Shown: positions 48,030 through 57,206 of the stretch, piece by piece | How the letters are laid out: each line of letters opens with the position of its first letter | Numbering within the stretch: the stretch's first letter is position 1 | Assembly: GCF_022201045.2 (NCBI RefSeq) | Contig: NC_068562.1 | Coordinates: forward strand, 8,972,001 to 9,036,000 | Direction of reading: 5' to 3' | Origin: Citrus sinensis | Taxonomy: Eukaryota; Streptophyta; Magnoliopsida; Sapindales; Rutaceae | Length of the DNA: 64,000 bases | Program-made: the position numbers and the translations under genes | Notes under the pieces: model-generated | What the model saw: only the letters and a program-made list of their open reading frames with translations | Databases searched by the model: none | What the model was told of the DNA's origin: nothing

Positions 48030-48038
48030 ATAATCTTA

Positions 48039-49087
48039 GAGATCCGATATTTGCCTCGGGTCAAATCCCGCAAACTAAATAAAACGGCGTCGTTTTGTGT
48101 AGTTTTTTTTTTTTTCCTTTTTTGCTTCTCCAAAATGTTGCCGTTTCTAAACCAGCTTAAGATTTTTTGAGACAAAACAAAATTTGTCTCCTGGTCGAAC
48201 TTCTGATTGGCGATTTGGGTACAATGCAATGACAGGAAGATATGAAGATCTCCTGTAACTCTAATAGAAAGCATTATTTATGCCAGCACAGAAATTGTTA
48301 TTTATTTCTGAGTAAAAAAAAAAAATTATGTGCGAATTCTCAAACAATGCACCATTAAACGTGGACCGATATGAGACAAAGCATATATAATTTTATGTGC
48401 CACCATAAACAATCGGTATAGACTAAACATTAAAGATTGAACAAGCAATAAAATCGAATAACATAAATAATTAAAATTGCTCTCCCAAAATCACAGTCCA
48501 TAATAAAAATTAATAAAAAATTGTAGCAAATAAGCAGACAGAGAATGAATGACTCACGGTAACAGCAAGAGATGAACGACGAGGGAAACGTGAGGGGCGT
48601 AGTGCTGAAGGGCTTGCTTGAGAGGAGGCCACGCATCCTTGCTGTCGGGGCAGACCGGGTCAAAGAACGCTTCGATGACGATGGTGTCCGAGTCAACGGG
48701 GTGATTCGCGTACAGGAACCCATCGTACTTTGTCGGCGGCAACGACTGGGATTTTGAGCATGAATTGAAAACGAAAAAGCAGAGCAGAGCTGTCGAGGAA
48801 GGAAAGTAACGAATTTTTCGGTAAGGAAGAAACGAAGAAACAAAGAAATGAAGGAACAAAGAAATGAAGAAACGAAGAGATTTACGGTGTTTCGTTTCGC
48901 GAATGGCTCTTCTATCTGTCTCAGGTGAAACGAATCCCAAGTGAAACGAAGAAACGAAGAGGAAGAGTGAGTGAAATAATCCATCAGAAACGGCAACGTT
49001 TTGGAGAGCAAAAAAAAAAACCTAACTAAATAAATCGACACCGTTTTGTTTAGTTTCGGAGTTTGACCCGGGCAAACATCATTTTCC
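48039..49087 (-). mobile_element. Pack-MULE (non-autonomous Mutator-like element) carrying a captured gene exon
   Basis: The element is 1,049 bp and flanked by perfect 9-bp duplications ATAATCTTA at 48030-48038 and 49088-49096, the hallmark of Mutator-like insertion. The terminal inverted repeats are about 100-110 bp: left arm 48039-48148 and right arm 48986-49087, both containing GGGTCAAAYYCCG, AACTAAAYAAAACGG, and CGGCAACRTTTTGGAGA with few mismatches. The interior contains no transposase; instead it holds a DsbA/thioredoxin-like exon on the minus strand (annotated separately). This matches the definition of a Pack-MULE, a gene-fragment-carrying Mutator relative. Confidence 0.85.
48554..48940 (-). 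pseudogene. Captured first exon of a DsbA-like thioredoxin-fold gene
   Basis: A 128-codon frame ends with SLPPTKYDGFLYANHPVDSD, TIVIEAFFDPVCPDSKDAWP and LKQALQHYAPHVSLVVHL. This corresponds to exon 1 of plant DsbA/thioredoxin-superfamily proteins of the YDGF...IEAFFDPVCPDS type, secreted proteins of about 230 residues. The frame stops at CC|GTGAGT, the original donor, and no later exon follows before the element end, so only the first third of the domain was captured. About 55 N-terminal codons before SSTALLC come from other sequence, rich in GAAACGAAG-like simple repeat, so the reading frame is chimeric. Where the parent has Leu-Pro-Leu-Pro near the junction this copy has Leu-Leu-Leu-Pro (parent sequence recalled, not checked). 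Confidence 0.8.
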
Positions 49088-49096
49088 ATAATCTTA

Positions 49097-49987
49097 TCAA
49101 TCATGAAGGAAATAATAATCTTGAACCAGTGAATTTTATCAATCATTTAGGAAATGGTAATTTTGAACCATTTTCATTTTACTATTTTATGCTCTATATG
49201 ATGAATATCGCATCACCAAGACAATTTTTTTTTAATAAATCTTTGAAAAAATTATTACATGATGTGTTATTAATATTACTTATAATAGTGCATTAGTAGT
49301 ATTGTTCTTTATTAGCAAAATGTCTTTGAATCTACTGATTTTGATATGATGTTAAAATTACAAAATTTAAAGTTTCCGTCAAATATTCACTTATTTATAG
49401 TCTGCAGTTGAATAATAAGTATTTTTATGTAAGTTATTAAACTGATAATGCCTATAAGTATATTAGATAAAAATTAAAAAAATATATTATTAAAGTTAGG
49501 CATGAAAAAAAGGCCCAAGTTGAATTTTAGCTCGGTTGACTTGACTTGAATTTTTTAGGTTTTAACTCGAATTTAAGGATCAAAATTTGAGTTCGGGCTT
49601 AAAAATATATGTCCAATTAAGTTCAGGTCAAGATTTGACTATAGCCAACCCGACCCAACCCAATTACTTAATAATAAAAAAAATATTTTTATTTGAATTT
49701 TGTGTTTTCATTGGAATTAGACATGGTTTTTTTTTTATTATGTTTAGTTATTTGTATAATTTTGTGGTTGGGATGTTGATTAGAGTAATTTTATGTTTAA
49801 TTTTAATATATTAGAATAGGTAAATTTAACTTATTTAAATATTAAAAAATTAAAAATATATTTAGTTGGGCTTGGGTCCTGACCCAAATAGAGTCCGGCT
49901 TGGTGAAAATTTGAAATTTTTATCGGATTCGAGCCCTTTATTTATGCTCAGCCCAAGTTCGACCCAACAAACTACCGTACGTAATTT
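49097..49987. other. AT-rich interval with possible GC-tipped MITE
   Basis: No gene seen. Between about 49497 and 49975, GGCCCAAGTT-like and GGGCTTGGGT/CAGCCCAAGTTCGACCC motifs face each other around an AT-rich core, a pattern typical of plant MITEs, but no target-site duplication or clean terminal repeat was found. Confidence 0.35.
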
Positions 49988-52446: not shown

Positions 52447-54875
52447 ATGGCGGATACCAAATTCAACAACACAGCTCTTCTAGTCATTGACATGCAGGTC
52501 CTTCTCTCTCTGTCTCTTTCTCTATATATATGCACAAAGATGAAAATTTCTTCAGTTTAATTTCATTTAAATTCAATTAACTTATATGGGCTTGTTTGTA
52601 ATTTGTAGAATGATTTTATACTTGATGATGGATTGATGAGAGTGGATGGAGGCAAAGCCATAGTTCCTAATGTAATTAAGGCTGTTGAAATCGCTAGGCA
52701 ACATGGCATTCTTGTTGTTTGGGTAATCTCCGTTCCTATCTTTCATTTCATTCCCACTCCGAGTTTTCATATCCTTATTGCTCTGTTTGTTTCCTATGAA
52801 GATTTAACCACCAACCAAAAGTTTAAAATTTGATAAGAGATTATTTGAATTTTAGACTAACTGAATATGCTTTCTAAGGGAAGCCTATTTACTAGTCAAA
52901 GTTTGATTTTGTAGCTGTTATTATATTTTTTGAGAGAAATTAATAATACTCTGAACCTTACTTATATCTATTGGAATGATTATTTTGTGCCTTATCACTT
53001 ATCAGTTTGATTTTAAAGATAAAGCTCATCACGGGGCATTTTTTTACGCTAAGGGTAAATAAAATATAATAATTTTTTTGGTGCATTTGTAGTAATTATG
53101 ATGAGATATATTGGCTAAAGGTTGTTCGTGAACATGATCCACTAGGAAGAGATGTTGAACTCTTTCGGCAGCACCTGTACTCTACAGGGACAGTGGGACC
53201 CACCTCTAAGGGAAGTCCTGGTGCAGAACTGGTAGATGGCCTTGAAATCAAGGAAGGTGATTATAAGGTGGTGAAGATGCGCTTTAGCGCCTTTTTTGCT
53301 ACCCATCTCAATTCATTCCTTCGAACTGCAGGGATTGATAGTTTAGTGATTGTTGGTACGTTAAATTTCAAGATTTGAGACCCTTTTGTTGATGTGATTT
53401 AATGCAGTGTTCTTGTGTAGAATAGTTGTGTGATTCATGTTGATCTCTATTTCTAGGTGTTCAAACTCCAAATTGCATCAGGCAGACTGTATTTGATGCA
53501 GTAGAACTGGATTACAAATCCATTACTATTATTGTTGATGCCACTGCTGCTGCCACACCTGAAATTCATGCTGGTACGTGATTTTCAGACACCTGGGTTC
53601 TTTTCATTTGATGTTTGCACCACCTGTTGTGTTCTTATGCAATACTTATCCTTGTTTTCTTTTTGGGTATTTGCCTCGACTGAAATGAGTCATTGATGAA
53701 AATAGCATTTTTCATATCTGAATTTGTATTCATACAAATTTTACTTCCACTGGGGATCTTTACTTGCGAACTAAAATTGTGAGTGCATGAAGCTTGATAA
53801 AAAATCCAATAGTAAATTTCATAAAAATTGCACTGCTTCCATTTGTTTCATTGTTGTCAGTGTTTCGACACTGTTTAGCGTACTAAGGTGACATATAGTT
53901 GCTTCTAGAATATGATTATGCAGCAAGCAAAAGTTTATGATATGAAGAAATGCTACTTTTGGTCGCCTTTGTATGTTTCCATAAAACAATGTTTTGGGTG
54001 TTGATCAGTCAACAATAGGCCTTTAAGCTTTTAGTGCTGGTATGGCATCAACAAACAGACTTCTTATGACATACATATAGATTAATGAGGGTATAGGATG
54101 TTTAGAAGAAGGAGCTTCTGCCTGAATTCTGTGCTGCAGCAAAAGTTGTTAAGTAAACTCACTTGCTTCGTTAATGAAGAATAATACTGGACTTCCCAAG
54201 TAATATCACAGTATTTCCATCCCAGGTGCTGATGTGGCACTCATCTATTGAATCATTAGTTTTGAACTTGTAGAATTACTTATCGCCCCCTCCCACCATC
54301 CAATGAATGAATACCACCTCACTTGGGATGGTAACATTTGGGGTACATGGGAAGTGTAGCATTAGTCAAAGTGAATTATGCCCATCCTGAGCTTCACTGA
54401 GGCTTTTAGCTATTGCGGATGAACTTAGGTTTCATTAGCACTACCTGTAAGGTCTGATATTCAGACTGCCGAAATGAGATAAACGATCTTTTAAAACATG
54501 GTGATTGAATGGATAGATGCTACTTTTTCCTATTTAAACCCGCATGTTTCTTCTTTAATACTCTTCCTCAGTGTCACTTAGCACTGTTATCTGTTGGTAT
54601 TCTTTTCCAGTCATTTAAAGAAACTTGGCAGAAAGAACTTTAGCCAAATTCGTTCTCTTCAAACCATACCATAAAATAGCAAATTTTATGAATATATGCT
54701 CTCTGTCTCTCTCATGCAACGCATCAAATTATGCTTGTCTTCATAGATTTTAGATTGGAAAATGTTATGACTAATGATGACTTCTAAATTTTCTGAAACA
54801 GCCAATATTTTTGACATGAAAAATGTCGGCGTTGCTGCCCTATCATTACAAGAATGGTCCGAGGCTGACTGGTGA
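52447..54875 (+). CDS. Isochorismatase-family hydrolase (At3g16190-like)
   Basis: Five exons (52447-52497, 52609-52722, 53121-53355, 53457-53573, 54802-54875) join in frame to 196 residues, the usual length of the family. The nicotinamidase-type triad is visible: Asp15 in LLVIDMQ, Lys107 in VVKMRFSAFFAT and Cys140 in GVQTPNCIRQT. The fold is a soluble Rossmann-like hydrolase; bacterial relatives cleave isochorismate, nicotinamide or ureidoacrylate. The true plant substrate is not known to me, and the Arabidopsis relative is described as a probable inactive nicotinamidase. The C-terminal MKNVGVAALSLQEWSEADW is typical. The first exon is only 17 codons, with a donor straight after the catalytic Asp motif. 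First of three tandem copies and the only complete one. Confidence 0.94.
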
Positions 54876-56356: not shown

Positions 56357-57206
56357 ATGGCACATCAAAATGGGAAAAACACTGCTCTCCTAGTTATGGA
56401 CATGCAGGTCTCTTGTCATATATATAGAGATAAGAAGCACATTAATCACTGATCTATTCATTTTTCACTTTATTTGAATTTTTATATTTTGGGTTGTTTG
56501 CGTTTTGTAGAATGATTTTATAGCGGATGATGGGTTGGTGAAAATGGACGGAGGGAAAGCCATACTTCCTAATGTTATTAGGGCGGTTGAAATCGCCAGG
56601 CAGCGTGGGATTCTTGTAGTTTGGGTAATCTTGCTAGTTCCGATATTATTTCTTTGATCGTAGCGTTAATTGTTATTGCTCTGTTTGTTTCCTGAGAAAA
56701 AATATACGTACATGCATATCACTGGATATTTCAGCTTTCCACAGTATTAATACATGAGTGAGGAGCACATGCGTTCAGAGGAATGATAAAACTTAAAACC
56801 AAAGGCTGCTTCATATGCCAATTTCCTTGTGCAGCAAGAAAAATGTTGTTAGCTTTGAGCCATATTTTCTTCATGTTAATCAATCAAACGTTGAATTTTT
56901 TGAAAATAAAATCTCAAATCTTGTTTCTATGTTGCATATGCTTGTGTCGATGATGATGGTGATGAGAAAAAGTATGGCATTTTAAAGGTTGTTCGCGAGC
57001 ACAACCCTCTAGGAAGAGATGTTGAACTCTTTCGCCGGCACCGGTACTCTCCGGGTAAAGTGGGCCCTGCGGTAAAGGTAAAGGGAAGTCGACTTCAACT
57101 TGTAAATTTTCTCTACTTTTGCACAGCAAACATTGTCGACATGAAAAATTTTGGAATTGCAGCACCAACCTTAGAAGAATGGTCAGAGAGGGTAGCTGAT
57201 GCTTAG
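56357..57206 (+). pseudogene. Shrunken tandem copy of the isochorismatase-family gene
   Basis: Exons 1 and 2 (56357-56407 and 56511-56624) are intact copies, with Asp15 kept in LLVMDMQ. Exon 3 survives only as its first part (56988-57054, VVREHNPLGRDVELFRRHRY) and is followed within 75 bp by the last exon (57127-57206, ending FGIAAPTLEEWSERVADA). All the DNA that encoded the catalytic Lys and Cys is gone. A donor at CCGG|GTAAAG would join the remaining exons in frame and give a 103-residue product, so a short protein could be made, but it cannot be a working hydrolase. It may be a true pseudogene or a gene for a dominant interfering fragment. Spacing and intron positions show it came from tandem duplication of the upstream gene. 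Confidence 0.82.

Follow-up and report, generated by a model that had tools for sequence, protein, structure and literature searches.

Rice Pack-MULEs often join sequence from several source loci. Elements of this kind have long been known (PMC3310237, PMC8277862), and the relevant passages of both papers describe, from rice, tomato and others, long terminal inverted repeats, a 9-bp target-site duplication, the lack of a transposase, captured exon and intron pieces whose parents stand elsewhere, and more than one copy with distinct duplications. The same passages treat the route by which host genes get into Pack-MULEs as unresolved. All of these features recur in an element that we describe here from the window, that is, the whole 64,000-nucleotide stretch of Citrus sinensis DNA that was analysed (C7:8972001–9036000, in an assembly of 299.7 Mb and 11 contigs). 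It differs from the described Pack-MULEs in that its termini are only 81% alike and in that comparison with its sister copies points to an older cargo that was partly replaced.

Two other systems are close to it. In the maize Pack-PIF elements of cluster 18, as outlined in parts of PMC8903248, a host fragment was likewise added later to elements that already carried one; that paper also describes later extra captures for other Pack-TYPE elements. The maize elements belong to another superfamily, and the window element lost most of its first cargo when the second entered. The animal Pack-TIRs, for which fork stalling and template switching are discussed in a section of PMC8277862, resemble the present case in having interchromosomal sources, parents without an element and short microhomology at some junctions; the window element differs in being a plant MULE, a group for which the same section calls a test of this mechanism worth exploring.

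In citrus, the sections of PMC4334395 on CitMule of clementine describe a transposase with FAR1, MULE and SWIM domains and 9-bp duplications. The same transposase domain set is found in relatives of the window element, and its family also has the 9-bp duplication and imperfect termini. A study of sweet orange attributes 31 of 40 spontaneous structural variants to three MULEs (part of PMC9832951), and a survey of MITEs in citrus includes 82 families of the Mutator type; captured gene fragments are not mentioned in the parts of that survey covered here (PMC6466647). Our search of the open-access literature on citrus Pack-MULEs, sweet-orange MULEs and citrus nonautonomous Mutator-like elements with gene fragments yielded, among the titles listed, none on this element. 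The kind of element and the process are thus already known as Pack-MULE; what is new is this particular element and a history richer than first described.

Structure of the element

The element spans 48039–49087 of the window (1049 bp), corresponding, with its duplications, to C7:9020030–9021096. It is flanked by the 9-bp target-site duplication ATAATCTTA, present as exact copies at 48030–48038 and 49088–49096, as the preliminary description had stated. The duplications of MULEs are 9–11 bp long, and both the window element and its sister copy on C6 have exact 9-bp ones. The left terminal inverted repeat (48039–48148), common to the element family, begins GAGATCCGATATTTG, and the right one (48986–49087), read inward, begins GGAAAATGATGTTTG. 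When the two were compared, 48046–48148 aligned with 48986–49080 over about 103 bp at 81% identity, close to the 105 bp or so originally given; a second comparison recovers this pairing in shorter pieces. For CitMule_1, the corresponding figures in the passage of PMC4334395 are 17 bp at 100%, 34 bp at 88% and 65 bp at 78%, a comparison that is by description only. Inside the left repeat lies a subterminal arm (48149–48194) that contains a short palindromic sequence, GAGACAAA...TTTGTCTC. Of the matches that were scored, only those to relatives on C6, C1, C4 and C7 include this arm.

Within the element, the plus strand contains no frame as long as 80 codons, and a Pfam scan of the two longest minus-strand frames gave no match, consistent with the original reading of an element without a transposase. 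What it carries instead are fragments of host genes whose parents are elsewhere, a DsbA-like gene on C5 and a chaperonin-60 gene on C2, with no family terminus in the stretches examined around them.

Some other features of the window lie to the right of the insertion. Directly adjoining it, at 49090–49170, are two 39-bp direct repeats with 85% identity, the first of which starts within the target duplication. An exon with an isochorismatase domain (PF00857) is found at 53073–53378, and a similar second reading without a Pfam match lies 3.8 kb further on, at 56910–57206; the two may form a tandem gene pair.

The DsbA-like cargo and its parent gene

The larger cargo, at 48314–48792 (479 bp), matched C5:37921853–37922333 with 95% identity (456 of 481 columns). 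The minus strand at C5 carries a gene with several exons, and its protein, with the exons joined by eye, matched PF13462 (Thioredoxin_4) with an E-value of 3.2e-9, while its score against PF01323 (DSBA) was below the curated cut-off. Since the active-site-like motif is CPDS, we read the parent as DsbA-like by its predicted fold and probably not a standard CxxC enzyme. A search of the genome with the protein gave six matches: four exons without stops on C5 and one copy of exon 1 each on C6 and in the window. The parent is therefore single copy in this assembly, with four exons. The preliminary description had asked for such a parent elsewhere in the genome, with intron 1 at the same donor, and for other copies with the same terminal repeats. 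The C5 gene, whose exons are open and whose donor occupies the same place, and the sister elements, including the C6 copy, provide both and bear out its assignment to the Pack-MULEs with a captured exon.

The details of the capture differ from that account. Read on the minus strand, the cargo starts at 48792, in the middle of the region encoding the signal peptide, runs through exon 1 (48558–48792) to the donor at 48558, and continues into the first 244 bp of intron 1 (48557–48314). The fragment does come from the first exon, as had been proposed, but lacks its 5' end and does not reach the parental ATG, whose position was deduced from the frame. A cargo consisting of an exon that stops at its old splice donor, as originally suggested, is ruled out by the 244 bp of intron that follow. 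The donor adjoining 48558 reads GTGAGT in both copies of the element vs. GTCAGT in the parent. The parental sequence diverges from the element at 48314, and the junctions show little microhomology, with an A-run on the left and about one base on the right. No other exon of the DsbA-like gene was matched near the window copy in the protein search.

A sister copy of the whole composite is located at C6:24531033–24532074. It is 95% identical to the window element, differing at 38 of 1037 aligned sites, and is collinear with it across every internal junction, but has a different 9-bp duplication, TTTTACAAA. The finished composite thus moved at least once after its assembly. The captured exon is more divergent between the two copies (8 of 235 sites) than the captured intron (2 of 244 sites), which is the reverse of what constraint on a protein would produce. 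Decay of methylated C in GC-rich DNA may perhaps account for the excess in the exon.

The chaperonin-60 stump, the filler and the right arm

The preliminary description was incomplete in that a second captured fragment had been overlooked. On the plus strand, in the sense orientation, 48195–48255 is identical over all 61 bp to C2:26812441–26812501, part of a chaperonin-60 exon (PF00118); the C6 copy has one difference in this stump. Three further elements, at C1:14397842, C4:2021382 and C7:21110631, have the same left arm and contain about 0.5 kb of chaperonin-60 sequence in one piece, 91–94% identical to the gene and starting at the same left junction as the stump in the window. Since the sequence runs on from the stump without a break both in the gene and in these three sister elements, the long chaperonin form presumably came first, and the window lineage would have lost most of it.

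The stump is followed by 58 bp of filler (48256–48313), present only in the window and C6 copies (two of six genome matches cover it). No source for it was found in a search of the whole genome or in a low-threshold comparison with both parent loci and the window, where the hits were limited to the A-run and further short similarities due to chance. With no source for the filler in the assembly, the path by which the composite was put together is incomplete.

On the other side of the DsbA-like cargo, the right subterminal arm (48793–48985) is rich in GAAGAAACGAAG repeats. These had been taken for simple-repeat-derived codons fused to the exon, and turn out to be the family's own subterminal DNA: the start of the arm, TCGAGGAAGG at 48793, or close variants of it, recurs in the C6 copy and, of the 19 family loci examined, in eight others (the loci with this start are L010, L015, L016 and L018–L023, of which L015 and L019 bear a transposase). 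In the three chaperonin elements, cargo and right arm meet further out. As the right arm of the window element reaches further in than that of its chaperonin relatives, the DsbA-like sequence did not enter by a simple replacement inside one of them. Either another family member gave the right arm, which is probably what happened, or the arms changed repeatedly.

The element family and its transposase-bearing relatives

A genome search with the left terminus gave at least 41 matches at at least 31 loci, with the best 40 of 79 candidates scored, and some loci with similar termini carry MULE-transposase frames. Two family-type ends and a 9-bp duplication were present at 16 of the 19 loci examined (11 exact, five with one mismatch), although the score by which the ends were picked took the duplication into account; at the other three (L011, L018 and L028), no 9-bp duplication was found at the family-type ends. 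When the left flank of one element was paired with the right flank of another as a control, none of 240 pairings came within one mismatch, and the best had two (3 of 240). All 16 duplication-bearing loci start with the family terminal motifs or close variants, those of L019 and L026 being off by a base or two.

Locus L019, which is 4.9 kb long, has both family termini and a 190-codon frame matching PF10551, so that the terminal repeats are common to transposase-bearing elements, as in other MULEs. A search with its middle part (2401 bases) gave at least 48 matches, with the best 40 of 194 candidates scored; at least 29 rows besides L019 itself align over some 1900 bases or more with no less than 80% identity. 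In one of these relatives, L049 (C3:32901995–32904351), a 729-codon frame without stops encodes FAR1, MULE and SWIM domains, and the one side that was examined shows a family terminus (83% over 69 bp). It is a candidate autonomous partner of the family; given this frame and terminus, a predicted source of FAR1-type transposase with family termini is present in the genome. L018, counted among the 17 loci in which no transposase frame was seen, has a match at C6:3012327 and probably represents the right end of such a transposase-bearing relative. Taken together, we consider it very probable that the window element is a non-autonomous, Mutator-like Pack-MULE with two copied host-gene pieces, which would have been moved in trans by the FAR1-type transposase of relatives with the same termini.

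Cargo sources were sought for six of the 17 loci without a transposase frame (the window element, L012, L016, L024, L025 and L026). The matches to the L025 cargo form a dispersed family, with no single source settled. L016 (C8:15946722) and L023 (C7:9101520), the latter about 80 kb from the window element, have about 0.7 kb in common with C3:42032234–42032906; a 405-codon frame neighbouring this source had no Pfam match. In L024 (C6:24794672–24795352), the last 113 bp of the cargo searched are identical to C10:210886–210998. As far as seen, C10 is outside the nine large contigs and is perhaps an organelle genome, in which case this piece may be organelle DNA that was taken up.

Uptake of the cargo

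Both parents are still in place; thus, the captured pieces were copied. How they entered may be illustrated by a second group in the family. L024 holds C5:30900130–30900672 unbroken, and in L026 (C5:11163983–11165283) and L028 (C5:6841018–6842290) the same C5 fragment is split by about 470 bp from C2:20727347, with a loss of 0 to about 7 bases from the older fragment, according to which side the short similarity at each join is assigned to. The nested pieces in L026 and L028 have no family terminus between them. At the C2 source, a frame overlapping the first 43 bp of the nested piece matched PF00067, and three further frames inside the piece gave no Pfam match at an E-value of 0.1. We therefore label this source P450-like, and it may be a broken gene; a full P450 reading was rejected, since PF00067 matched only the frame overlapping those first 43 bp. 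A further copy of the nested capture, at C8:16789051, was seen only as a search match. L026 and L028 are an independent case of successive nested capture, one that fits gap repair by template switching, the mechanism proposed for the animal Pack-TIRs (PMC8277862).

On these grounds, we think it rather likely that the pieces in the window element entered by the filling of a break or gap. A break or gap would have arisen inside the element, and the synthesis that filled it would have switched to an unrelated locus; the older chaperonin cargo would then have been replaced for the most part by the filler and the DsbA-like sequence, and the new cargo joined to a right arm from a family member. Against this account stand the filler without a source, the longer reach of the right arm and the scant microhomology at the DsbA junctions. 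The element could also have acquired its cargo through the re-mobilisation of DNA between two neighbouring family insertions, a tandem-insertion model of Pack-TYPE elements with examples from maize and rice in the part of PMC8903248 concerned. The arms lend this some colour, as the left one is of the chaperonin type and the longer right one of the canonical type, so that they look like those of two different family members. The model is nevertheless rather unlikely to apply, because the filler and the DsbA-like piece are not neighbours at the parent locus, where the sequence departs from that of the element at its left junction, and because the 9 kb examined around the DsbA-like parent yielded no family terminus. 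Nor was one found in the stretches examined around the sources L009, L014, L036, L038 and L043. Moreover, the model does not readily give nested pieces like those in L026 and L028, where the loss is no more than about 7 bases and an intervening terminus is absent. That the exon is what remains of a DsbA gene that once stood at this site, after segmental duplication or gene decay, would agree with the original order of exon 1 and the part of intron 1; the piece is, however, bounded by family arms and by termini whose 9-bp duplication is exact, the search matched none of the gene's other exons nearby, and the presence on C6 of the same composite, with the same junctions and a different duplication, in our view already refutes this explanation, which we regard as practically negligible.

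Under the favoured route of gap filling with a template switch, the two groups can be viewed together. It is possible, and we propose it only tentatively, that the family records a successive exchange of cargo, in which a first piece was either mostly overwritten by a second, as with chaperonin and DsbA, or split by it, as with the C5 fragment and the P450-like piece.

Peptide or RNA product

The open cargo frame of 128 codons originally reported is real, and is part of a 155-codon stop-to-stop frame in the DsbA phase (48554–49021, minus strand), which contains no ATG and which we do not judge to be a gene. In the C6 copy, the frame is interrupted by a TAA at codon 12 of the DsbA fragment. The codons of the exon differ between the window and C6 copies by two synonymous, four nonsynonymous and one nonsense change, over a total of about 52 synonymous and 177 nonsynonymous sites; these numbers are small, and the few differences look neutral. 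Relative to the parent, dN/dS was 0.66 for the window copy and 0.44 for the C6 copy, with 13 differences each; values below 1 would by themselves count against a cargo without useful protein, but these include the constraint on the parent itself. The right arm is free of stops in the DsbA frame, as are 17% of Markov-simulated sequences with the same dinucleotide content. Neither the DsbA frame nor a 238-codon stop-to-stop frame matched Pfam at an E-value of 0.01. The longest reading started by an ATG, of 184 codons (173 in the C6 copy), is in a frame other than that of DsbA, and its stop-to-stop frame contains no Pfam family.

The suggestion that a chimeric secreted or membrane peptide could be expressed from the cargo does not stand up to these results. 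A young gene, transcribed from the right terminus and encoding such a peptide with half a thioredoxin fold, would draw on the open 155 codons, on the hydrophobic part of the signal peptide, which was kept, and on the ATG-started reading in the other frame. Such a gene would be recognised by an in-frame start codon together with constraint on the protein, and we found neither; with the nonsense codon in the sister copy, the kinds of codon differences between the copies, the fairly frequent openness of T/C-rich sequence and the lack of a Pfam match also against it, we consider a young gene highly improbable. Selection on a peptide was rejected on the missing ATG, the stop in the C6 copy and the differences between the copies. 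It is likely that the cargo makes no useful protein, and the only activity that seems plausible for it would be through RNA, or small RNA, homologous to the parent. In its specific form, in which the cargo is a putative source of small or antisense RNA that lowers the expression of the DsbA-like parent, this activity is improbable, if less so than a young gene. The 21-mers identical to the parent locus number 70 of 215 in the exon and 105 of 224 in the intron, and a passage of PMC8277862 raises the possibility that rice Pack-MULEs give rise to small RNAs, but 145 of the 215 exon 21-mers carry mismatches. The definition of a Pack-MULE does not call for an expressed cargo. We judge the copied gene pieces to be passengers.

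Implications

Finding an open frame in a Pack-MULE says little for the presence of a gene, as the T/C-rich strand of the right arm in this family is fairly often open by composition alone. The parents, the sisters with a single source, the pair with replaced cargo, the subfamily with nested cargo and the relatives that bear a transposase are all present in a single assembly, which makes both the junctions and the sequence of events legible. If the reading as a successive exchange of cargo is true, the family would constitute a natural assay for the uptake of genes by plant Pack-MULEs through interrupted gap repair inside the element, in which the older cargo would be a frequent site of breakage.
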